Below are positions 812 through 62,365 of a stretch of DNA of 64,000 bases, in pieces. The stretch is from Bacteroidota bacterium (lineage in GTDB: Bacteria > Bacteroidota > Bacteroidia > Palsa-948): NCBI GenBank assembly GCA_016213405.1, contig JACRAM010000016.1, positions 1-64,000 on the forward strand, read 5' to 3'. The notes beneath the pieces were generated by a model. That model was not told where the DNA came from and searched no databases. It saw only the letters and a program-made list of their open reading frames with translations. Each line of letters opens with the position of its first letter. Position 1 is the first letter of the stretch. A program made the position numbers and the translations under genes.

Positions 812-828
812 GGTATTGTTTGTTTAGA

Positions 829-937
829 AGCCCATCCTAAATCCTTCCCGAAGGGAAGGACTTTTTTGACAGACTATGATTATTTGTTGTTTTATTTTTC
901 TTTTCACCCTTCCCTTTGGGAAGGGAAGGGATGGGCT
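829..937. repeat. Inverted repeat, CCCATCC/GGATGGG family
   Basis: The arms read AGCCCATCCTAAATCCTTCCC and its complement ending in GGGATGGGCTC, each with its own small CTTCCC/GGGAAG hairpin. It fills the gap between the sensor stop codon and the next gene. The left half is almost identical to 33057-33090 inside the TonB receptor gene. Confidence 0.85.
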
Positions 938-938
938 C

Positions 939-3900
939 TTAAATTCTGATTCCAATAACAAGTATGTCATCCACTTGCTGTTCTGTTCCTGCCCATTCAT
1001 TCAGACTGTTCTCCAGAATATTCTTCTGGTCACCGAGATTTTCTTTTTGCAACGAAAGCAGAATTTCTTTAAATCGTTTCTTGGTCAGTTTTTTCCCTTT
1101 GTCTCCTCCAAACTGATCGGCATAGCCATCGGTAAATAAATAGAAGGTATCGCCCGGCTCAAGGAGCATTTCTTTATTGGTGAATGGTTTGTCTATACCA
1201 AGATAAATGCCGATAGGCATTTTGTCGGCTGTAAGTTCTATCAGTTCTCCTTTTCTTATCAGGTATAACGAGTTGTTTGCTCCGGCATAGCAAAGTTTGT
1301 GATTTATTTTCTTTCCTACAAGAGATACTTCCAAACTCACGAGCGACATATCCATCCCGTCTTTCTGTTCGCCTGACTGCCCTGTTTGACCTAATGATTT
1401 TACGATTCCTTTTTTCATTGAATCGAGAGCGGCAGCCGGATCGGAGAATGATTTTTCAAGCAGCACTTCATTCAAAAGAGAATAGCCGATGAGTGACATG
1501 AATGCGCCCGGCACACCGTGACCGGTGCAGTCGCAGGCAGCAATAATAAATTTTCTGTCCTTCTCAGCAAACCAATAAAAATCTCCGGCAACAATATCTT
1601 TTGGCTTGTATAATATAAAACTTTCCGGAAATCTGCTTCGCATTATTTCATACTGCGGAAGAATTGCTTCCTGAATTCTTTTGGCGTAATTAATACTGTC
1701 AGTGATATTGCGGTTCTTATATTCAATTTCTTCTTTTTGCTTCACCACTTCGGCAGTGCGCTCACGGATGATTCTTTTCAGTCCGTGTGAGAAATAAGTA
1801 ACAACTCCCCAAATAAATCCTATAGAAGAAAGCACGTATAACACATACGCCCACCAGGTTCTGTACCACGGAGGAAGAATAACAAATTCGTATATAGCTT
1901 CACTGCTTTCTTTATTAAAAACATTTTTTGCTTTTACGTGGAAGGAATAAGAACCTTCCGGAAGATTTGTATACACCGCTTTTGTTTCGTGCTTAAAGTT
2001 GCTCCATTCTTTGTCAAATCCTTCCAGGAAATATTGAAATTGTTCAGCCCCTTCATTAATAAAATCAAGAGCGGAAAATTCAAAAATGATAGAGTTATTT
2101 GCAAACGGCAATTCATATTTCAGCAATTGATTTTGAAGGAGCGAAGTAATCTTTGATGAATCAAAAGATGTTCCGTTAAAGATGGTTGAATCTTTTCCAA
2201 TGGTTACTTTCCGGATGATGGAAGTGAAGGGCTGGCTTTCATTCACATCTTCATTCGCATCGTACCTGAAAAGTCCGGCAGCGCCTCCAAACCAGGTGAT
2301 GCCGTTTCCGTCATGAAATATTACATGAATGATTTCATCAGAATAGGTTAAGAAAGGATTGGTAATCCAGTCATAGCCGCCATTTTTATTTTTTTTCAGA
2401 AACCCGAATTCAAATTTATTTTTTTCAGTGTAGTAGGTCTCCATCCATATTTTCCCGGATTGATTATCCACTGCCACTCGGTAAACCTGATGGGTGCCAT
2501 CCGAGAACTGAGAACCAAATGCAGTGTCGGGAGAAAACTTTTCATCTTTCATACTGTAGATTCCCTTCGCAGTAAAAAAAAGAATTTCCCCGTTCACATC
2601 TTCTAATTCAACGCTTCCATCCGGTAATCCTGCTGAAGAACTGTATTTAACATAGCGGTAAGATTGCGTGTCATTATTTTTTCTTGCAGCGTGCTGATGA
2701 TTTTTGAAACTGACCTTTATGGTGCCGTTATCATGTCCGAGCCAAACATTGCCATCCTTGTCCTCGTTGATGGAGCGAACGCTTTCTTTTATTTCCAGAA
2801 TGCTTCCTTCATCAATCCATTTTGTTCCATTCCAATAAATGGATGCAAAACCATTGTTGAGACCTAAAAAAATTCTTGATGAATCAAAGTTGGAGCAGTG
2901 AAGAACCCAGGGTCCGTAAGGAAATAAGGGAGAAATTCTTTTTTGTGCGTCAATGGAATAAATACTTCCGTTGGATGCGGCAAGAAGGGTGGAATAATTG
3001 CCGGACTTGAATGAATACAGATCCCAGCACTCTTCATTAATGGAAGGAATTTTTTCAAATGAGGCAGGAGAAAGCGCATTGCCGTTTATTACATTTCCGG
3101 GATTGAGTGAATAAACTCCCTGAACAGTTGTAACATACAATGTGTTATTATGCCGGATGATGGATTGCACAGTTCCGCCCGGTCCGTTTTTATCTGTAAA
3201 ATGTGTAACAGGCGATTTGATGGCAACTCTTGAAATTCCGTTGCTGGTGGCAAGCCATAAATTTCCTGAAGCATCCACATACTGCGAATAAATTGTTTCG
3301 TCTTGCAGCCCAATGTCTTTGTTCAGAAAACTGACAAGGTTCCCCTCCGCATCAATGATTACGGCTCCCTTTGTAACGGTGGCAACAGAATATCCCACTT
3401 CTGTTTTCAACAGGTGATAACTCAGGTTTTCAAGCAGGAACGGATCAACTTGAGTGGGGAAACTTTCCAGTACAAATGAAGCTCCTTCATAAGTATTTTT
3501 TAATGAAGGTTTCAGAATATACAGTCCTTTCTTTTTTGTGCAGAGCAAAATATTGGAAGAAGTGCCGTTATCAATCTTTCCCGGAAAAGGAATCATGGCA
3601 TAAACGCTTTCTTCTGCAAATGTTTCTCCGCCTTTTAGCAGCGTGAGATTGTCGCCTTCAATTTCAAGAAGCCCAACCTCCCGCTCTCTTACAAACAGAT
3701 GCCCGTTCACATAAAAGATCCTGTGAAAAGATTTCTCCGCATTCCATACTTTCATGTTCTTTCCATCCCACCTGAAAATTTTATTGTCAGATTGAAAGTA
3801 AATGCCGTCTTTGGCAGACTGCGTACACCAGATGTCAGAAAAATCCAAATCATTTTTATCCACATGCGGAAGAAGGGAAACATACCGCATATTTCCCAAT

Positions 3901-7452: not shown

Positions 7453-8847
7453 ATGATTACACCGATGAAAGAAAGATTACACAGATTAGTCATTTGTCAT
7501 TTGTCATTAATCATTTGTGTTTTCACATCTGCCATCTGCCATCTTACATCTTACATTTCATTTGCACAGCCCAAGGTGCTCGATGGCGTAGTGGCGATAG
7601 TAGGTTCAAGCCCCATCCTTCAGAGCGAGGTTGAATCAAAACGTGTGCAGGCAAAACTTGATTCTGTTGAGTTTGACCGATGCTCTGCCCTGGAAGATTT
7701 ACTTTATCAAAAACTTCTTCTTGCACAAGCGATAAAAGACAGCGTTGAAATTACCGATGAACAGGTAGAGGAAGAGCTGGAAAGGCGGCTGCGTTATTAC
7801 ATTCAGCAATTCGGCTCTGTTCTGGCATTCGAAAATTTTTATGGCAAGAATGTAGAGAAATTTAAAGAAGAATTCAGGGAGGAATTACGTGAAGTCCTTC
7901 TGGTTCAGAAAATGCAGGCGAAAGTTACCGATGGAATTACAGTCTCTCCATCTGAAGTAAAAGATTTTTTTGATGCTATTCCGAAAGACAGCATTCCGCT
8001 TATCAATGCAGAAATAGAAGTAGGGCATATTATGAGAAAGCCAAAAATAAATCCTGAACTGAAAAAATACGCTAAAGAAAAACTGGAAACAATACGTCAG
8101 GAAATCATTGCAGGGAAAAAAGATTTTTCAACAGCGGCAATATTATATTCTGAAGACCCCGGCTCTGCTTCCAAAGGCGGGTTGTATGACCATGTTCAGC
8201 GCGGAACGTTTGTGCCTGAATTTGATGCCATGGCATTTCGAATGAAAGAGAAAGAAGTATCAGAAATATTCGAAACAGATTTTGGCTATCACATATTGAT
8301 GGTGGAAGCGCGAAGGGGAGAAGAGATTGATGTGCGCCATATTCTTCTTGTCCCTCAGCCCGCTCCGGAAGATTTGCTGAAAGCAAAAACTTTTCTTGAC
8401 AGTATTGCCGATTTAGTGAAGAAAGATTCTATCTCTATCACAGAAGCCGCCTCGCGCTTTTCTGATGATGAAGATACCAAGCATACAGGAGGGCTTATCA
8501 GCAACCCTTACACCGGCAGCACTAAATTTGAAATGAGCCAGCTCAGCCAGATTGACGCTAACCTTGTTTTCACTACCGACAAACTTAAAACAGGTGAATT
8601 GTCTGCTACAGAATTAACCCAATCGCATGATGGAAAACAATCGTATCACATCATCTATGTGAAAAGCAGGACAGAACCGCATCGTGCTAATCTCAAAGAA
8701 GATTACCAACTCATGCAAGACGAAGCGCTGGCGGCAAAAAAAGATAAGGAAGTAAGCAAATGGATAAAGAAAAAGATAACTTCTAATTATATTCGCGTTT
8801 CAGAAGAATATAAAAATTGTAAGTTTGATAATAAGTGGATAAACTGA
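7453..8847 (+). CDS. surA: SurA-type peptidyl-prolyl cis-trans isomerase
   Basis: 464 residues, directly after the preceding stop codon; the internal ATG at 7465 is an alternative start. A signal peptide (about 1-39) is followed by the SurA N-terminal helical domain (VAIVGSSPILQSEVESK, about 40-170) and two parvulin domains: VGHIMRKP ... GGLYDHVQRG ... FGYHILMVE (about 185-290) and VRHILLVP ... GGLISNPY ... SYHIIYVKS (about 295-415). It would chaperone outer-membrane proteins in the periplasm. The whole signal peptide is built from three short repeat blocks (GATTACAC, CATTTGT and CATCTGC words). Confidence 0.93.
   Translation: MITPMKERLHRLVICHLSLIICVFTSAICHLTSYISFAQPKVLDGVVAIVGSSPILQSEVESKRVQAKLDSVEFDRCSALEDLLYQKLLLAQAIKDSVEITDEQVEEELERRLRYYIQQFGSVLAFENFYGKNVEKFKEEFREELREVLLVQKMQAKVTDGITVSPSEVKDFFDAIPKDSIPLINAEIEVGHIMRKPKINPELKKYAKEKLETIRQEIIAGKKDFSTAAILYSEDPGSASKGGLYDHVQRGTFVPEFDAMAFRMKEKEVSEIFETDFGYHILMVEARRGEEIDVRHILLVPQPAPEDLLKAKTFLDSIADLVKKDSISITEAASRFSDDEDTKHTGGLISNPYTGSTKFEMSQLSQIDANLVFTTDKLKTGELSATELTQSHDGKQSYHIIYVKSRTEPHRANLKEDYQLMQDEALAAKKDKEVSKWIKKKITSNYIRVSEEYKNCKFDNKWIN
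7454..7560. repeat. Three stacked word-repeat blocks encoding the SurA signal peptide
   Basis: GATTACACCGAT ... GATTACACAGAT (7454-7488), then CATTTGT x3-4 with drift (about 7490-7518), then CATCTGC x2 and CATCTTA x2 (7525-7560). All three words recur in intergenic elements elsewhere in the window. Confidence 0.88.
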
Positions 8848-16266: not shown

Positions 16267-16369
16267 GGCAGTAGGCAGTAGCCAATAGGCAAAAAATACA
16301 AAAAGCAAAAAAAGAAAATAGAAACAAAAAAAAAAAATCGGTGTAATCTAAAATACATCGGTGTAATCT
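16267..16369. repeat. GGCAGTA and CGGTGTAATC word repeats between rplB and rpsS
   Basis: GGCAGTA, GGCAGTA, GCCAATA, GGC (16267-16290) is a heptamer run whose complement is the word seen in the signal peptides at 60296 and 49071. ATCGGTGTAATCT occurs twice at 16337 and 16357. Neither has a full second arm here. Confidence 0.8.
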
Positions 16370-16713: not shown

Positions 16714-16790
16714 GATTACACCGATTCTAAAAACCAAAGATTACACAGATAAAACATCGGTGTAATCTATTTCTAAAATCTGTGTAATCG
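16714..16790. repeat. GATTACAC-word hairpin between rpsS and rplV
   Basis: GATTACACCGAT ... GATTACACAGAT on the left and ATCGGTGTAATC ... ATCTGTGTAATC on the right, i.e. each left word has a complement on the right but in swapped order. Fills most of a 109-nt gap. Confidence 0.88.
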
Positions 16791-17208: not shown

Positions 17209-17220
17209 AAAAAAAGAAAA

Positions 17221-17251
17221 TCGGTGTAATCTTTTTTACATCGGTGTAATC
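17221..17251. repeat. Double CGGTGTAATC word between rplV and rpsC
   Basis: TCGGTGTAATC occurs at about 17221 and 17241, separated by a T-rich spacer, within a 53-nt gap. Same word as 16337-16369. Confidence 0.8.
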
Positions 17252-22878: not shown

Positions 22879-23334
22879 ATGGAACTACATAATTTAAAAC
22901 CGGCAAGAGGCTCTGTAAAAGCAAATGTTAAGCGTAAAGGGCGCGGACAAGGTTCAGGTAAAGGCGGAACTTCTACAAAAGGTCATAAAGGTCAGCAGTC
23001 GGATAGCGGCTACAATATGAGACGCGGTCACGAAGGAGGGCAGATGCCTTTGCAAAGGCGTTTGGCTAAGTTTGGTTTCACTAATCTTTTCCGAAGAGAG
23101 TTTCACGGAGTTAATCTTCATACACTTCAGCGTTTAGTTGATGAAAAGAAAGTAAGTTCGTTCGACATTCAAACATATATTACTAACGGATTGGTTTCAA
23201 AAAGCCAGCGCGTGAAAATTCTAGGCACCGGAGAACTGAAATCAAAAGTAGATGTGAAAGCGCATGCTTTCTCTGCAGCGGCAAAATCAGCAATAGAAGC
23301 AAAAGGTGGTAAAATAGAAGTGGTGAAGGCATAA
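22879..23334 (+). CDS. rplO: 50S ribosomal protein L15
   Basis: 151 residues; late assembly protein. The Gly/Arg-rich N-terminus (GRGQGSGKGGTSTKGHKGQ) and the C-terminal VKAHAFSAAAKSAIEAKGG are typical. It follows rpsE directly because rpmD is missing. Confidence 0.98.
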   Translation: MELHNLKPARGSVKANVKRKGRGQGSGKGGTSTKGHKGQQSDSGYNMRRGHEGGQMPLQRRLAKFGFTNLFRREFHGVNLHTLQRLVDEKKVSSFDIQTYITNGLVSKSQRVKILGTGELKSKVDVKAHAFSAAAKSAIEAKGGKIEVVKA

Positions 23335-23335
23335 A

Positions 23336-23464
23336 AGCCCCACCCTGCCCACCCCATAAGGGAGGGAAAAAGTAAAATGAAACAGAAAACAAAAAATAAA
23401 GTCCAGCAAGTTCTCCCTAACGGGGAGGATTCCCGCCTGCCGGACGGGCAGGTAGGAGGGGCTC
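23336..23464. repeat. AGCCCC/GGGGCT composite inverted repeat between rplO and secY
   Basis: The outer arms AGCCCCACCCTGCCC and GGTAGGAGGGGCTC enclose CTCCCTAACGGGGAG and CCCGCCTGCCGGACGGGCAGG palindromes. Fills nearly all of the 137-nt gap before secY. Confidence 0.82.
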
Positions 23465-32362: not shown

Positions 32363-33055
32363 ATGAAAACAATGAGTAAATGTGTAAATGTGCAAATGAA
32401 GAATGTATTTATATTGGCATTCATCAGCATATCCGCACATCTGTTAATCGGCACATTTGCTTTTTCTCAGGACAAAGACCTCATTCAGTTTTCAGGAGTA
32501 ATTGTAGAAAATGACAGCCTGAAGCCCGTTCCGTTCACTAAGGTGATTATCAAAAGCTCCGGCAGAGGCACTCTTGCCGACTTCTATGGATATTTTTCAT
32601 TTGTTGCGCAGAAAAAAGATACCATCATCTTTTCAGGAATCGGTTATAAAAAATCTCAGTTCATTATTCCCGACACGCTATCGGGAAATAAATATTCATT
32701 GATACAGGTTTTGCATTTTGATACGATTCTTCTGAAAGAAACTATTATTTATCCGTGGCCCACGCGCGAACAGTTTAAAGAAGTTTTCCTGAACATGAAA
32801 GTTCCTGATGATGACCTTGCACGCGCCAAAAAAAACCTGGACAGGGAAGAAATGAAAGAGCAATACGAGAATATGGGAATGGATGGAAGCATGAATTACA
32901 AAGCCAGCCAGCAACAGTATCAAAGCCGTTTGTACTGGGCAGGGCAATATCCTCCGAACAACCTGCTGAACCCGTTTGCCTGGGCACAGTTTGTAAAAAT
33001 GTGGCGGGAAGGAAAACTGAAAATAAAACCAGGGAATGAAGATAAAGAAAAGTAA
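32363..33055 (+). CDS. Secreted carboxypeptidase-regulatory-like domain protein
   Basis: 230 residues; the start at 32396 (MKNVFILAFISIS) gives a cleaner signal peptide and a better distance from the promoter. The mature part begins with a CarboxypepD_reg-like beta-sandwich (FSGVIVENDSLKPVPFTKVI ... LADFYGYFSFVAQKKDTI ... GYKKSQF), as found at the N-terminus of TonB receptors, and ends in a charged helical region. It overlaps the TonB receptor gene by 20 nt, suggesting co-translation. Left and right repeat arms lie around the start and in the signal peptide. Confidence 0.82.
   Translation: MKTMSKCVNVQMKNVFILAFISISAHLLIGTFAFSQDKDLIQFSGVIVENDSLKPVPFTKVIIKSSGRGTLADFYGYFSFVAQKKDTIIFSGIGYKKSQFIIPDTLSGNKYSLIQVLHFDTILLKETIIYPWPTREQFKEVFLNMKVPDDDLARAKKNLDREEMKEQYENMGMDGSMNYKASQQQYQSRLYWAGQYPPNNLLNPFAWAQFVKMWREGKLKIKPGNEDKEK
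32376..32460. repeat. AAATGTG/CACATTT hairpin around a start codon and signal peptide
   Basis: Left arm GTAAATGTGTAAATGTGCAA (ending in ATG); right arm CGCACATCTGTTAATCGG then CACATTTGC. The right arm encodes ISAHLLIGTF of the signal peptide. Confidence 0.8.
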
Positions 33056-35735
33056 GGAGCCCATCCTAAATCCTTCCCCAAGGGAAGGACTTTTTATATA
33101 CATTTTTTTTCTTCTATTACTTTTCCCATCCATTGGGGAGGGGCAAGGGGTGGGCACCACTGCCACTCTCTACGGAAAAATAACAGACAAAGAAGGTAAT
33201 CCGATCTCTGAAGCAAGAGTTTCTGTAGCAAATACAAAAATAGTTACAGCAACAAATGAAAAAGGAGATTACGAACTCAGCGTGCCTGCCGGCACAAACA
33301 TAACGATAGAATTTTCTCATGTTAGTTTCGGAATCAAGTTGAAGACGGTCAAACTTTCTGCAGGAGAAAAAGCAAAAGCAGATGTTTCGGTTGACAATTT
33401 AAAAACACTCGACACCTTTGTGGTGGAAGATAAAATCAACCGCTCTAATTTCATCCAGATAATTCCGACCAAAGATATTTATGTGCAAACGGGCGCTTCG
33501 CAGGATTTTAATACAATAATTTTCACTCAACTCGGAGTTCAGCAGAGCAATGAACTCAGTTCTGTGTATTCCGTTCGCGGAGGAAACTTTGACGAGAATT
33601 TAGTTTATGTGAACGACATTGAAGTGTATCGCCCCTTTCTCACGCATAGCGGACAGCAGGAAGGATTAAGCTTTGTGAATTCAGATATGGTTTCGTCCAT
33701 CAATTTTTCTTCGGGCGGATTTGAGGCGCGCTACGGAGATAAAATGTCATCCGTGCTTGACATACGCTACACCAAGCCCAGAGAGTTTGCCGGGAGCGTT
33801 TCAGGCGGTTTGCTGGGCGGCTCTATGCATCTGGAAGGCGCTTCTAAAGACAAACGCTTCACCTATCTGCTGGGCGTTCGCGAGAAATCAAATTCATATC
33901 TGCTGAAATCGCTGGACACAAAAGGAGAATACAAACCTTTGTTCTACGATGTTCAGTCTTACATCACGTTTAATCCCACCAACGAATGGGAACATGGTTT
34001 TCTTTTCAATGTGGCGCGGAATAAATACCGCACGATTCCGCAGACAAGAAAATCATCTTTCGGAACGGTGAATGAAGCGCTTCAGCTTAACGTTTACTTT
34101 GATGGTCAGGAGATTGATAACTATCAAACTATGATGGGTGCATTTACAAGCGCTTATCGTCCGTATGGAAAAGACCTCACACTGAAATTCATCACATCGG
34201 CTTTCAAGACAAAAGAAAGCGAAACGTTTGATCTGCTCGGGCAATATGAATTGAACGAACTTGAAAATGATTTCGGAAAAGATAACTTCGGACAATCTGC
34301 CTTCAACATCGGCACAGGTGGATTTCTGAATCACGCGAGGAATTATTTAGACGCATCGGTTTATAATTTCGAGCACAAGGGAAATAAAACATGGAAGAAT
34401 GGAAGTGCGGAAGAATGGAAGGATGGAAAAAAGAAATCCACCCAACCTTCCAACATTCCAACATTCCATTCCCGTGAACTCTGGTGGGGGGCAAAGTATC
34501 AGCACGAAATCATTAACGACAAACTCAGCGAATGGACGTTGATTGATTCCGCGGGATATTCTCTTCCCAACGGTTCTGATTCTGCCGGATACACCAACCC
34601 CAACGCGCAGCCCTATGAATATCTGGATGTGAATGAAGTCATCAAATCAAAAAATAATCTTTCAAGCAATCGCTATTCAGGATACATTCAGCAGGCGTGG
34701 AGTTGGGAAACAAAAGACACAAGCGAACTTACCATTACTGCCGGAGTACGCGCCAATTACTGGGACTTGAATAAACAATTGCTCCTTAGCCCGCGAACAA
34801 CACTTTCATTCAAGCCGAAATGGAAACGCGATGTATTGTTCAAAGCATCTTCCGGATATTATTACCAGCCGCCTTTCTACAGGGAACTACGCGACTTTCA
34901 GGGAAACCTTCACACCGATCTGAAAGCGCAGCAGTCCATTCATTTTGTTTTAGGAACAGATATAAATTACATGGCGTGGGGGCGACCGTTCAAATTTATT
35001 TCTGAACTGTATTACAAAAGGTTTGACAATTTAATTCCGTATGAAGTGGATAACGTGCGCCTGCGCTACTATGCCGCAAACAGCGCGAAGGGTTACGCAA
35101 CAGGAGTTGATTTTAAAGTGAACGGAGAATTTGTGAAAGGAATTGATTCATGGGCAAGTTTGTCTGTGATGAAAACAATGGAAGACATCAAGACCGATTA
35201 TTACTACATCTACCTCAACAGCGATGGCGATACAATTATTCCGGGCTACTCAAGTAATGCTGTTCACTCCGACAGCATTCGCGTTGAGCCGGGCTACATT
35301 CCCCGCCCGATGGATCAGCGCGTAACGTTCAGCTTGTTCTTTCAGGATTACCTGCCCAATCTGCCGCGATGCAAAATGCACATGAATCTTCTCTTCGGAA
35401 CCGGATTGCCGTTTGGTCCTCCAAGCTTTGAACGCTACAAAGATGTTTTAAGAATGCCGCCTTACCGCAGAGTGGATATTGGGTTTTCGTATGAAGTAAA
35501 AAGAAAGCCCCACCCTTCCCTCCCCATCGGGGAGGAACAAGGTGTGGAAGCCCCTCCTCATGGGAGGGGTTGGGGGTGGGCTTCGGTTTGGTTTTCGTTA
35601 GAAGTGTACAACCTGCTTGCCGTAAACAATGTTGTTTCTTATTTTTGGGTGCGCGATGTAAGCGGAAGGCAATACGCGGTGCCCAACTATCTCTCCAACC
35701 GTTTGCTGAATGCACGGGTGATGATTAAGTTTTAA
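33036..35735 (+). CDS. TonB-dependent outer-membrane receptor
   Basis: 899 residues. N-terminal signal (about 1-35), carboxypeptidase-regulatory-like domain (LYGKITDKEGNPISEARVSV, about 43-125), plug domain (VYSVRGGNFDENLVYVNDIE, about 140-260) and a 22-strand-type barrel to the end. It would take up a ligand across the outer membrane with TonB energy; the substrate is unknown and no SusD partner is present. Three repeat elements lie within its reading frame: over the signal peptide (33057-33156), in the barrel (34391-34473) and near the C-terminus (35505-35583). The reading frame nevertheless stays open. Confidence 0.9.
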   Translation: MKIKKSKEPILNPSPREGLFIYIFFLLLLFPSIGEGQGVGTTATLYGKITDKEGNPISEARVSVANTKIVTATNEKGDYELSVPAGTNITIEFSHVSFGIKLKTVKLSAGEKAKADVSVDNLKTLDTFVVEDKINRSNFIQIIPTKDIYVQTGASQDFNTIIFTQLGVQQSNELSSVYSVRGGNFDENLVYVNDIEVYRPFLTHSGQQEGLSFVNSDMVSSINFSSGGFEARYGDKMSSVLDIRYTKPREFAGSVSGGLLGGSMHLEGASKDKRFTYLLGVREKSNSYLLKSLDTKGEYKPLFYDVQSYITFNPTNEWEHGFLFNVARNKYRTIPQTRKSSFGTVNEALQLNVYFDGQEIDNYQTMMGAFTSAYRPYGKDLTLKFITSAFKTKESETFDLLGQYELNELENDFGKDNFGQSAFNIGTGGFLNHARNYLDASVYNFEHKGNKTWKNGSAEEWKDGKKKSTQPSNIPTFHSRELWWGAKYQHEIINDKLSEWTLIDSAGYSLPNGSDSAGYTNPNAQPYEYLDVNEVIKSKNNLSSNRYSGYIQQAWSWETKDTSELTITAGVRANYWDLNKQLLLSPRTTLSFKPKWKRDVLFKASSGYYYQPPFYRELRDFQGNLHTDLKAQQSIHFVLGTDINYMAWGRPFKFISELYYKRFDNLIPYEVDNVRLRYYAANSAKGYATGVDFKVNGEFVKGIDSWASLSVMKTMEDIKTDYYYIYLNSDGDTIIPGYSSNAVHSDSIRVEPGYIPRPMDQRVTFSLFFQDYLPNLPRCKMHMNLLFGTGLPFGPPSFERYKDVLRMPPYRRVDIGFSYEVKRKPHPSLPIGEEQGVEAPPHGRGWGWASVWFSLEVYNLLAVNNVVSYFWVRDVSGRQYAVPNYLSNRLLNARVMIKF
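33057..33156. repeat. CCCATCC/GGTGGGC inverted repeat forming the TonB receptor 5' end
   Basis: AGCCCATCCTAAATCCTTCC then CCAAGGGAAGGAC on the left and CCATTGGGGAGGGGCAAGG then GGTGGGC on the right. The left part matches the intergenic element at 829-861 almost exactly. The signal-peptide hydrophobic core is the loop of this element. Confidence 0.85.
34391..34473. repeat. ATGGAAG/CTTCCAT-word hairpin inside the TonB receptor
   Basis: Left arm ATGGAAGAATGGAAGTGCGG then AAGAATGGAAGGATGG; right arm CCTTCCAACATTCCAACATT then CCATTCCC. It is translated in frame as a Lys/Trp/Glu then Ser/Pro-rich stretch (WKNGSAEEWKDGKKK) in a barrel loop. Confidence 0.85.
35505..35583. repeat. AGCCCC/GGGCTT inverted repeat inside the TonB receptor 3' end
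   Basis: AAGCCCCACCCTTCCCTCCC ... TCCTCATGGGAGGGG ... GGGGGTGGGCTT. It is translated in frame as HPSLPIGEEQGVEAPPHGRG between two barrel strands. Same family as 23336-23464 and 62047-62083. Confidence 0.87.
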
Positions 35736-44871: not shown

Positions 44872-44977
44872 TTAACCGCAGAGAACACAGAGAAAACAAC
44901 ACGCGGAGAGCCGCAGAAAAAATGCAATCTTGTATTCTCAGCGGTTCTCTGCGTAAAACCTCAGCGAACTCTGCGGT

Positions 44978-45748: not shown

Positions 45749-45782
45749 AGTTTTTAATTTTTAATTGGTTATTGTTGATTTA

Positions 45783-45983
45783 TTATTTACTGCTGTTTTT
45801 ATTTTTCGCGCTCATGCCTTTTTTCTTCGCGCTCATGCCTTTTTCTCGCGCGCCCGTGCCTTTTTTCTTCGCGCCCGTGCCTTTTTTCTTCGCGCTCATG
45901 CCTTTTTTCTTCGCGCTCATGCCTTTTTTCTTCGCGCCCGTGCCTTTTTCTCGCGCGCCCGTGCCTTTTTTATTGGCGCTCAT
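45783..45983 (-). CDS. Lysine-rich heptad-repeat miniprotein
   Basis: 66 residues from ATG at 45983, made of nine 7-residue units of the types GMSAKKK, GTGAKKK and GTGAREK, ending NSSK. Unit DNA is 21 bp. The variants alternate in pairs (TT, MM, TT, MM), suggesting duplication of a 14-residue block. The sequence is very basic and low-complexity, as in disordered nucleic-acid-binding tails. A weak AAAAAGG precedes the start. Whether it is translated is not certain; the antisense frame is also open. Confidence 0.5.
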   Translation of the reverse strand: MSANKKGTGAREKGTGAKKKGMSAKKKGMSAKKKGTGAKKKGTGAREKGMSAKKKGMSAKNKNSSK

Positions 45984-45990
45984 GCCTTTT
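45804..45990. repeat. 21-bp tandem repeat (9 units)
   Basis: Units such as CGCGCTCATGCCTTTTTTCTT and CGCGCCCGTGCCTTTTTTCTT follow each other without spacers. The period is three heptamers, the same multiple that keeps a 7-nt repeat in frame. Confidence 0.92.
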
Positions 45991-46155
45991 TCTATCAACA
46001 CAACCTGTTCCGTTTCATTTGAGTGTGTGCAAAATCTCTTATGTAAATGTAGATTGCTTAGGTGAGAGCGGCAATACTTCAATTGAAGTATTTTACTGAT
46101 ACGGATAACCTCACAACGATTATTCCGTATACATGAATGTTCTTTATTTCTTAAA

Positions 46156-57124: not shown

Positions 57125-60100
57125 GGTTATCTCTGTGATAGGAGTATTGTCCTTAAAGCAATAAATTCCTCCCCAGTTGTGTGTCACTTTTGTATACACT
57201 CCGGCAAAATCATCTTTGATAACCACTCTGCGAAGGACTACTTTTCCGTTATCTGAAAATTCTTCTTCTGTAACGCCATTCGGATATTTAGCGCGCAGTT
57301 CCGATTGATAAACCTTTTTCTTTTCTTCTTCAGAAATTACGGGCGTTTTATCCTTGGGTTTAGTATTCTGAGCGAGAAGGGCTGCTTTCAGCAGCGACTC
57401 AATTTGCGTGAGGCGCTGCTTCGGATATTTTTCATTGGGTTTGTACGTGAGCGCCTCTTCGTAAGCGGGTTTTGCACGCAAATAATCTTTTACTCCAAAC
57501 GCCTTATCTCCCCTGTCAATGCATTGATTGTATTTAATCAGCACATTATTGCTTGCCTGAGCTTCGCCTCTCGCCTTTTCAATTTTTTCAATCTCTGCCA
57601 GCTTATCCTTTGGGTATTGCTCGTCCGGTTTATAGGTGAGCGCCTCGTTGTAAGAAGCTTTTGCATTGGCAAAGGTCTGTTCTTTGAAAGCGAAATCACC
57701 GCGCATGACAGCAGACAGATAATTATCATTCAATGTTTTGTCAGCTGCGTTTTTTGATGCAAGGTCTTTCAGAATTTTGTCAATCTCTGCAAGTTTATTT
57801 TTAGGGTATTGTTCCAAAGGCTTGATTCCGCTTGCTTCGGTGTATCCCGCTTTTGCAGCCGTATAGTCTTTTGAATTAAATCCGTTGTCTCCAGTAGCAA
57901 TAGCGGCTTTATATTTATCATCAATTTCTTTTTGCTTTGCCGCATTGGATTTTTGCGCGTCAAGGTCGGCAAGTATTTTATCTATCTCAGCAATTCTTTG
58001 TTTCGGGTATTGTTCAGCAGGTTTCACACCCAGCGCTTCATTGTATGCTGATTTAGAATTACTGTAATCCTTCGCATTGAAAAGTTTATCTGCCTTTGCG
58101 ATAGCATCGCTATACAGTTTGTCTTTTTCTGCGGCAGATTTCTGCGCGGCAAGGTCGGCAAGCAATTTGTCTATCTCCGCAATTTTTGTTTTTGGATATT
58201 GTTCAGAAGGTTTTATGGTTGACGCCTGCGTGTAAGAATTTTTTGCGCCAGCATAATTCTTTGTTTCGAAAGCAGCATCCGCCTTAGCGATGGCATCTTT
58301 GTACTGCTGTTCTTTTTGTTTTTCTGCTTCTGCCGCTCCAAGTAATTTATCTATTTCGGCAAGTTTGGTTTTCGGGTATTGTTCAGATGGTTTTATTCCG
58401 CTTGCCTCTGTGTATCCCGCTCTTGCAGTCGAATAATCTTTTGAAGTGAATGCACCGTCTCCCTTCGCAATGGCGGCTTTATATTTATCATCAATCTCTT
58501 TTTGTTTGGCGGCACTTGCGGCATCAGCAATAAGTTTTTCTATTTCGGCAAGTTTTGTTTTGGGATATTGCTCAGATGGTTTTATTCCCGATGCTTCGGT
58601 ATATCCTGCTTTCGCTGCAGAATAATCTTTTGCGTTGAAAGCATTATCGCCTTTTGTGATTGCTGCCTGATATTTTGATTCAATTTCCTTCTGCTTTGCT
58701 GCATCTCCTAATAATTTATCAATCTCCGCAAGTTTTGTTTTCGGATAGGGTTCCGAAGGTTTTATTCCGGTCGCTTCGGTATAACCCGCTCTTGCTGTGG
58801 TGTAATCTTTTGAAGTGAATGCCCCATCGCCTTTTGCTATAGCTGCTTTATATTTCTCATCCAGCTCTATTTGTTTCGCGGCATTGGCGGCATCAGCAAG
58901 CAGTTTATCAATCTCTCCAAGCATTTGTTTCGGATAGGGTTCATTCGGCTTAACTCCGATTGCTTCATTAAATCCTGCTTTTGATGTAACATAATCTTTC
59001 GCTTTGAAAGCATTATCTCCTTTGGTGATGGCTGCCTGATATTTTGTGTCAATCTCTTTCTGTTTGGCTGCGTCTCCTAATAATTTATCGAGCTCTGCAA
59101 GTTTTGTTTTCGGATACTGCTCAGCAGGTTTTATTCCGGTCGCTTCGGTGAAAGCGGTTTTTGAAGAAGCATAATCTTTTGTTCCGAAGGCAGCGTCTCC
59201 TTTTGCAATTGCCGCTTTATACTTTTCATCAATTTCTTTCTGCTTGCTTGCATCGGCAAGAAGTTTGTCAATCTCTGCAATTTTTGTTTTGGGATATTGC
59301 TCAGCGGGTTTAATGTATGACGCTTCAGTGAATCCTGCTTTTGCTGTAGTATAATCTTTCGTTCCGAAGGCATTATCGCCTTTAGCAATGGCGGCTTTAT
59401 ATTTTTCATCAACTTCTTTCTGCTTGTCGGCATCGGCAAGAAGTTTCTCTATTTCGGCAAGTTTTGTTTTAGGATATTGCTCCGAAGGTTTTATTCCCGA
59501 TGCTTCCGTATAAGAAGTTTTTGCAGAAGCATAATCTTTTGAAGTGAATGCTCCATCGCCTTTCGTGATGGCTGCTTTATACTTTGCATCAATTTCTTTC
59601 TGTGCATTTGCATTGGCAAGCAACTTATCTATTTCTGCAAGTTTCTGTTTGGGATAGGCTTCAGCAGGTTTGACTCCAAGCGCTTCGTTGTAACCCATTT
59701 TTGCGGTGGAGTAATCTGCGCTTCCGAAAGCTTTGTCCGCTTTGGCAATGGCTGCTTTATATTTATTGTCAAGTTCCAATTGTTTCTGCGCTTCCACAGC
59801 GGCATTCTTCGCCTTATCAGCCATTTCTTTTTCTACCTGCTTTTGCAAATCAGCCAGTTCAGAAAGTTTGCTCTGAATTGCCTGCGTGTATTTTTCATCG
59901 TAATTAAAATTGTTCTCAGATGGAATATATTGGTAAATGGCAATGGGCTGGCTCAATATCGCTTCCACTCTTTTGGCAATTTCAGGAGCGGTGGGCATTT
60001 CAAATAAAGTCACATCGGGTTCAAACGGATTGAAATTGCCACCTTCAGCGCGGTCGGCAGGAACATTAGCGGTGACTATCTTGAATTTTTTTGTAACGTA

Positions 60101-61343: not shown

Positions 61344-62045
61344 ATGATGATGTTCGACCCGATATTAATGGTAATCACGCTGGTGTTCATGGGCATTGGA
61401 ATGTTTGTGAGCGCGCGTTTGAAATCTAAATTTGCTGAATACTCTAAAACTCCTCTTCAAAATGGAATGAGCGGAAAAGAGGTTGCCGAAAAAATGCTCC
61501 GCGATAACGGAATAACAGATGTAAAAATAATTTCGGTGGACGGACAACTTAGCGACCATTACAATCCGCTGACAAAAACCGTGAACCTCAGCCGCGAAGT
61601 TTTTGAAGGAAGAAATATTGCTTCTGCCGCAGTTGCTTCTCACGAATGCGGACACGCAGTTCAGCATGCTCATGCCTATTCATGGCTCACGCTTCGCTCT
61701 GCCATTGTTCCGGTGGTGAACATCAGTTCAAAAGCAATGAATATAATTATTCTTGCCGGATTTTTCTTAGGATTCATGTATCATTGGTACAACCAAATGC
61801 TTTTGGCAATTATTCTTTGTCAGGGAGTGATCACCGTTTTCTCCATGATAACTCTTCCTGTGGAACTTGACGCCAGCAAACGCGCGCTGGTGTGGCTGAA
61901 CTCTGCCAACATTGCGCGTGGCGATGAACACGCAAAAGCCGAAGACGCTCTCAACTGGGCAGCACGCACTTATTTTGTTGCCGCACTGGCTTCGCTCGCG
62001 CAGCTGATGTATTTTATTATGCTGTTGTTGGGAAGAAGGAAATAA
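61344..62045 (+). CDS. YugP-type membrane zinc metallopeptidase
   Basis: 233 residues. N-terminal membrane helix (about 5-25), the zinc site HECGH at 100-104 with the following YSWLTLRSAIVPVVNISSKA, and two or three further helices (about 130-175 and 208-228). The family (Zn_peptidase_2) is predicted to cleave proteins in or near the membrane. Single-gene unit. Confidence 0.9.
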   Translation: MMMFDPILMVITLVFMGIGMFVSARLKSKFAEYSKTPLQNGMSGKEVAEKMLRDNGITDVKIISVDGQLSDHYNPLTKTVNLSREVFEGRNIASAAVASHECGHAVQHAHAYSWLTLRSAIVPVVNISSKAMNIIILAGFFLGFMYHWYNQMLLAIILCQGVITVFSMITLPVELDASKRALVWLNSANIARGDEHAKAEDALNWAARTYFVAALASLAQLMYFIMLLLGRRK

Positions 62046-62046
62046 A

Positions 62047-62083
62047 AAGCCCACCCCTAACCCCTCCCATTAGGAGGGGAAAA
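62047..62083. repeat. AGCCCACCCC repeat after the peptidase gene
   Basis: AAGCCCACCCCTAACCCCTC then CCATTAGGAGGGG. One arm of the family that is complete at 23336-23464 and in the TonB receptor (35505-35583). Confidence 0.75.
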
Positions 62084-62118
62084 GAAAAATACATTATACA
62101 TTAGTTGAAAGTCCTCCC

Positions 62119-62365
62119 GTTAACATAAGAAAACGTTCATACAAAAGAATATATCGTTAACACAAATAAAGAAAACGTTCATACAAAAGAATATATCGTT
62201 AACACAAATAAAGAAAACGCTCATACAAAAGAAGAAATCGTTAACACAGATAAAGAAAACGCTCATGCAAAAAAAGATATCGTTAATGCAAATAAAGAAA
62301 GCGCACATGCGTTAATTGAAATCATTAACTCAAATAAAGAAAACACTCACGCAAAAGAAGAAAAC
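62119..62365. repeat. 42-bp tandem repeat, about six units
   Basis: Units start at 62119, 62156, 62198, 62240, 62282 and 62324; the first lacks 5 bp. Each 42 bp (6 x 7) encodes a 14-residue unit like VNTNKENVHTKEYI in the plus direction. Confidence 0.9.

Follow-up and report, generated by a model that had tools for sequence, protein, structure and literature searches.

Inteins and homing endonucleases, some of which are Vsr-like, place a nuclease gene inside the reading frame of conserved genes. Short palindromes are also found in coding sequence: Rickettsia palindromic elements (RPEs) are inserted in the reading frames of many unrelated conserved genes (PMC2229807, PMC10969869), and the GTAG/CGTC type of repetitive extragenic palindromic sequences (REPs), which occur with REP-associated tyrosine transposases (RAYTs), form small hairpins and inverted dimers, some of them within genes, including DNA-repair genes (PMC3733652). 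Bacterial miniature inverted-repeat transposable elements (MITEs) such as ERIC, Correia/NEMIS and YPAL have terminal inverted repeats and produce in-frame fusions, some of which contribute predicted signal-peptide or membrane segments (PMC2229807). Further, proteins carrying the domain DUF559 have been described as Vsr-like PD-(D/E)XK endonucleases, and in Caulobacter the DUF559 protein VsrA is responsible for the SOS response upon loss of a cytosine methylase; in the available parts of that paper the domain is not treated as part of a mobile element (PMC12907096). Here, we present an analysis of a 64,000-nucleotide stretch of a Bacteroidota genome of the GTDB lineage Palsa-948 (assembly GCA_016213405.1, contig JACRAM010000016.1, positions 1 to 64,000; hereafter the window), in which a gene for a TonB-dependent receptor contains three in-frame repeat elements, named A, B and C. 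We consider it likely that the receptor has been struck by two families of short palindromic elements that invaded the genome, and that a longer form carrying DUF559 is the autonomous element and the short elements of the G+C-rich family are its non-autonomous counterparts.

The short elements share their way of life with RPEs and with intragenic REPs (PMC2229807, PMC3733652 and PMC10969869), a likeness that is meant as one of way of life and not of descent. They differ from RPEs in residing in another phylum and in a bacterium from an environmental metagenome, in their bipartite units with C/T hairpins and in having a candidate enzyme-coding long form, and from MITEs in being modular hairpin units for which no transposase-derived ends were identified. 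No account of palindromic DUF559 elements was found in the open-access literature searched, as judged mostly from titles and the beginnings of abstracts, and the accessible part of PMC551604 makes no mention of DUF559.

The source genome (G000) is a 3.65-Mb draft in 127 contigs, with the window on contig C16, and was compared with congeners (G001-G006) and with a relative from a different family (G029); the congeners named by protein search are uncultured Bacteroidetes metagenome-assembled genomes, one of them named with 'groundwater'. A preliminary description of the window, made from its letters alone, had reported a receptor gene interrupted by three repeat elements that are read through, and this is confirmed by an open reading frame (ORF) without a stop across all three segments (Table 1) and by matches to each segment elsewhere in the genome. 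The segments fall into two families, A with C and B by itself, and not into one as had been supposed. Including the elements themselves, element A was found at 41 places in its own genome (BLASTN of 33040-33170; best other match E 1.4e-16), element C at 15 and element B at 12 (best other match E 6.9e-13). A and C represent a G+C-rich family in which units of ~38 nt, each reading AAGCCC(A/C)..CC followed by a C/T-armed hairpin, stand as inverted pairs around a spacer. A hidden Markov model (HMM) of this unit, used in place of an earlier and stricter descriptor that gave 44 units and 8 pairs, has 118 matches at E<1 in 459 kb of the source genome compared with 6 in reversed DNA, and matches both units of element C. 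The copies of element B that were read belong to a distinct family with inverted arms made of GGAAGAATGG-like words; no enzyme link was found for it, and it has no demonstrated tie to DUF559. Several other word-type repeat families in the window share an arm layout resembling that of element B. At gathering thresholds, Rfam has no match in the window.

Table 1. Features of the receptor gene, its repeat elements and related copies in the window.
Feature	Position	Strand	Description and evidence
Element A, G+C palindromic pair	33054..33158	+	Left unit 33054-33091 (unit HMM, +, E 1.8e-7), right unit 33125-33158 (-, E 0.18, weak); from upstream stop codon over the signal peptide
Element B, GGAAGAATGG-type word-repeat family, inverted arms	34391..34473	+	Insertion of 22 aa, in the strand 8/9 turn
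Element C, compact G+C palindromic pair	35504..35584	+	Units 35504-35537 (+) and 35549-35584 (-); in the strand 20/21 turn
TonB-dependent receptor gene, 899 aa	33036..35735	+	ORF; Pfam CarboxypepD_reg and plug; 22-strand barrel in AlphaFold2 model; Foldseek
Upstream gene, CarbopepD_reg_2 domain	32363..33055	+	ORF, Pfam; stop codon abuts element A
Intergenic full-length pair, A family	825..940	+	Own-genome matches, unit HMM
Weak pair, A family	23333..23431	+	HMM E 0.07 and 0.28
Single unit, A family, just past a gene end	62045..62081	+	Own-genome matches, unit HMM

In an alignment of 30 receptor orthologue loci, element B is an insertion of 22 residues without counterpart in all 29 other rows, and so behaves as the preliminary description had expected of an inserted element. 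Its proposal of three independent events holds less well: independence is doubtful for C, since G005 has the same element, and we have withdrawn strictly independent hits at that site. The turn containing C varies in length, with other sequences in G004, G006 and G003 and shorter ones in G002 and G001, and G004 retains letters resembling the end of the element, which may mark an old insertion that was later changed; by sequence comparison, C is thus neither private nor a recent event. At site A, the signal peptide is likewise overlain by pairs of the A family in G003 and G005 and by word-type repeats (judged by eye) in G006 and G001. A fourth site, D, holds extra inserts in G006 and G003. Because B is absent from the other rows, C is length-variable and site A has family pairs in congeners, the alignment offers no orthologues of similar length that are conserved across the three segments. 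Empty sites were also found in other genes. In pyruvate carboxylase, an insert of 47 aa stands in place of a short turn (VEFLI-DEKN-HIYFIEVNPR); four of the five congeners read (G001, G004, G005 and G006) have this turn intact, and the fifth, G003, carries another palindromic insert there. In RecG, G001 and G003 lack the short unit of residues 415-427, and G005 carries an insert at the corresponding position. Receptor element B, pyruvate carboxylase and RecG thus each provide an in-frame intragenic copy that lacks a counterpart in orthologues, as would be expected of elements of the RPE kind.

Across 459 kb of the source genome, 69 units form 46 elements, of which 17 are intergenic, 19 lie inside genes, 7 cover N-terminal and 3 C-terminal ends, so that copies stand both between and within unrelated genes in the manner of RPE-type interspersed palindromes. 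Overlap with coding DNA was observed for 29 of the 46 elements as compared with ~40 expected at random; genes are avoided by the elements but far from forbidden to them. The 19 internal copies are spread over 16 genes, including, as typed with NCBIfam, pyruvate carboxylase, ThiL, MeaB, a PGDH-like enzyme, a YegS-type lipid kinase, 3-hydroxyacyl-CoA dehydrogenase and MurE, and further RecG, UbiD (three copies), a SpoIIE/propeller protein and two secreted proteins whose C-terminal domains are of the sorting type. The internal copies have a mean length of 54 nt, a G+C content of 0.61 and 4.0 of six frames open, compared with 87 nt, 0.50 and 2.5 for the others, and such shorter, G+C-richer and more open copies are what would be expected if copies containing stops and rich in A/T were purged. 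Palindromic units were also seen within likely signal peptides, for example ...LSPFPWGRVGDGLFAQ, in L102 (9020-12268), L099 (3883-5292), L105 (5055-7085) and L107 (5974-7509), and the elements may thereby donate export signals.

A long form of the element lies in RecG of the source genome, where a second insert of ~150 residues is lacking in G001, G003, G005 and G006 by protein alignment, with the DNA also read for G001 and G003. In this insert, a complete DUF559 domain is enclosed by a left unit and an inverted right unit, and all three are in frame. The genome has seven DUF559 copies; besides the one in RecG, one is set in the frame of IcmF (fused isobutyryl-CoA mutase/GTPase) and one stands in frame ahead of an RluA-like synthase. 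The recG copy and the copy next to rluA each have unit-HMM matches at their two ends. The domain is present in 38 of 60 relatives searched, and the only clear solved relative found for it was 3hrl. In one locus (L117, on contig C114), two tandem DUF559 genes (1432-1821 and 2011-2388) are each followed by the same hairpin pair, which makes this a duplicated element.

In total, 76 DUF559 copies were read, comprising the seven of the source genome, one per genome from relatives and 40 picked by hand, 25 of those for their long frames; 74 were kept for the hairpin test (two had no flanks), 74 for the frame test (two had no frame) and 73 for the tree. Strict hairpins stand on both sides of DUF559 in 47 of 74 copies, on one side in 20 and on neither in 7, and random control spots for this set had hairpins on both sides in 3 of 2000 cases in the own genome and 0 of 2000 in distal flanks. 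A run over other classes of the phylum, from which two of 28 loci with short flanks were left out, gave hairpins on both sides at 14 of 20 loci, on one side at 5 and on neither at 1. The left and right ends of the same locus resemble each other more than ends from different genomes do (0.43 vs 0.20, standard deviation 0.13; 47 loci). Frames with at least 250 further residues enclose DUF559 in 38 of the 74 copies, a proportion that is no estimate for all copies because the loci were partly picked for long frames. Among these 38, some are not shown to be internal, being fusions close to the end of a gene or truncated where the locus stops. By NCBIfam, the hosts are LeuRS (8), MetH (4), SiaA/SpoIIE-type proteins (4), RecJ (3), RecG, MutS, IcmF, TsaB and HsdR (two each), and single cases of TsaD, TsaC, acetate-CoA ligase and CaiB-type, RluA-type and PglX-type proteins, with no clear host name for L153, L158 and L176. 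In five LeuRS loci from five GTDB families (L128, L130, L141, L160 and L172), DUF559 occupies the same turn, just before the VFTTRPDTIFG motif.

Long and short forms meet at RecG, where G029 has a DUF559 element in the very loop that holds the short unit in G000 and an insert in G005; the DUF559 inserts of G000 and G029 themselves occupy different loops. On the tree of 73 DUF559 domains, which is supported by few columns, the gene-inserted label changes 8 times, compared with 24.9 times when shuffled (0 of 500 shuffles as low), and host-specific clades span different GTDB families. Element anatomy, hairpin association, in-frame occupancy and empty sites are thus all direct observations, and from them we infer cutting by DUF559, copying-in and a dependence of the short elements on DUF559. 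As a mechanism, the DUF559 form would be an autonomous element whose nuclease cuts the target, repair or transposition would then copy the element in, and the short elements would be non-autonomous derivatives or relatives of it. The inserts in the receptor may persist because a signal peptide and periplasmic turns tolerate extra residues, and not as surface variation. We are evenly divided over the broader proposal that this is an unrecognised class of mobile element, namely a palindrome-DUF559-palindrome unit that is open from end to end, would be translated as an unspliced domain within essential genes (LeuRS, MetH, RecJ, RecG, MutS and TsaD/B/C), would spread to the same genes across families in a homing-like manner, and would seed short non-autonomous palindromes in their hundreds, from which host proteins such as the receptor would gain peptides and even signal-peptide segments.

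Several points weigh against a mobile DUF559 element and its short dependants. Transposition events were not observed, and no target-site duplications were seen by eye at the aligned pyruvate carboxylase and RecG sites. The flanking letters of the pyruvate carboxylase inserts are shared by G000 and G003, and these flanks, together with the occurrence of C in both G000 and G005, would allow one old insertion that diverged, so that repeated insertion at a single site is not established. Seven of the 74 DUF559 copies lack a flanking hairpin by the strict test, and standalone copies often have hairpins of other sub-families. Short elements are ~50 times commoner than DUF559 genes in the source genome (46 per 459 kb vs 7 per 3.65 Mb), so that the link rests on architecture and association, and a passenger gene profiting from a palindrome-mobilising enzyme elsewhere would give the same association. 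Additionally, the genome sample comprises three contig samples and the window, with 375 genes called by a simple home-made codon model, three of the 16 host genes have no NCBIfam match at 1e-20, and the AlphaFold2 model of the receptor is of medium confidence, with a poor plug (mean pLDDT 68, pTM 0.62).

Such an enzyme elsewhere could be a RAYT or IS200-type Y1 transposase, as has been proposed for REPs, with DUF559 as a frequent passenger. The published model has RAYTs flanked by REPs (PMC3733652), and the genome has eight Y1_Tnp matches, two of which have units in their ~1.5 kb flanks (a unit pair at L065 and a single unit at L069). However, two of eight loci is about what the density of units predicts over ~3 kb of flank, several Y1 genes have their own unrelated hairpins, and the tight two-sided bracket is found at DUF559 genes instead, which ties the present elements to DUF559 and not to Y1 transposases. 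Of the 69 units, 4 have the GTAG tag of REPs at the hairpin foot and 1 has CGTC, compared with 2.5% and 1.7% of random 18-mers, and the tags therefore do not characterise these units. With Y1 genes not generally flanked by the repeats, we have downgraded this enzyme as the mobiliser and regard it as unlikely.

Somewhat more improbable still is a reading of the gene-inserted DUF559 copies as homing elements that, like inteins, undergo splicing, with the short elements as unrelated REP-like repeats. DUF559 elements do resemble inteins and homing endonucleases in standing in frame in conserved housekeeping genes and in forming host-specific lineages, with clades that extend across families as under homing. 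Unlike inteins, they have palindromic ends in place of splice motifs at the insert edges and are apparently translated as an extra domain. The LeuRS of L161, the sole inserted protein scanned with Pfam (1e-5; the others were scanned with NCBIfam), has DUF559 and LeuRS domains and no Hint or splicing domain. Long and short forms moreover share units and one RecG loop, and the differing loops of the two RecG inserts likewise speak against homing of this type.

The preliminary description had suggested that the inserts alter surface loops of the receptor, perhaps under selection for escape from phages or immunity. In favour of such adaptive variation, this one receptor has several inserts, and congeners have other inserts at sites that it shares with them. 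The topology of B, C and A speaks against it. In the model, whose best Foldseek matches are TonB-dependent transporters and whose 22 strands were assigned by hand from the DSSP string, B (residues ~455-475, strands 8/9), D (559-562, strands 10/11) and C (824-849, strands 20/21) form even-to-odd turns, which by strand order, counted from either terminus, are predicted to face the periplasm and not the outside, and element A overlaps a modelled helix at residues 15-36, the signal peptide. A further argument against surface escape is that enzymes of the cytosol (pyruvate carboxylase, RecG, ThiL, MurE, MeaB and 3-hydroxyacyl-CoA dehydrogenase) contain these elements as well. Besides the receptor, three genes have two to three elements of the G+C family, compared with 1.66 genes expected with two or more; clustering in genes is modest, and nothing about it is particular to the receptor. 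We consequently find surface escape highly improbable and an adaptive role not needed for these insertions, while the tolerance of the protein for in-frame repeats, which had also been proposed, is supported. An artefact of assembly or annotation, conceivable in a metagenome-assembled draft of 127 contigs, is hardly credible: none of the inserts closes its reading frame, the named independent congener assemblies have comparable inserts, and DUF559 copies in long frames also occur in genomes made up of one or a few contigs.

The window contains other repeats. A further interspersed family of ATCGGTGTAATC words in direct and inverted orientation occurs at 413-445, 7454-7487, 16336-16368, 16757-16789 and 17219-17251, and a direct repeat of 106 nt, 99% identical, links 11-116 with 44872-44977, 45 kb apart. 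Two stretches, 45756-46012 and 62085-62363, are tandem arrays that repeat every 21 nt, in one case around TTCGCGCTCATGCCTTTTT, and long in-register repeats with a spacing of 180/189 nt at 57771-59792 probably encode a repeat protein.

If true, the mobile palindrome-DUF559 element with its short dependants would mean that selfish palindromes in reading frames are not peculiar to the intracellular Rickettsia, and that Bacteroidota proteins recurrently gain peptides from them. A candidate enzyme would be in hand, which the available literature passages do not give for RPEs, and it would become possible to test what mobilises palindromes of this kind. For genome annotation, DUF559 'domains' in LeuRS, MetH and RecJ, as well as GEGLGMG-like peptides, would be mobile insertions and not functional domains. 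A mobile nuclease that survives by being translated, unspliced, inside essential genes would represent a distinct survival strategy.

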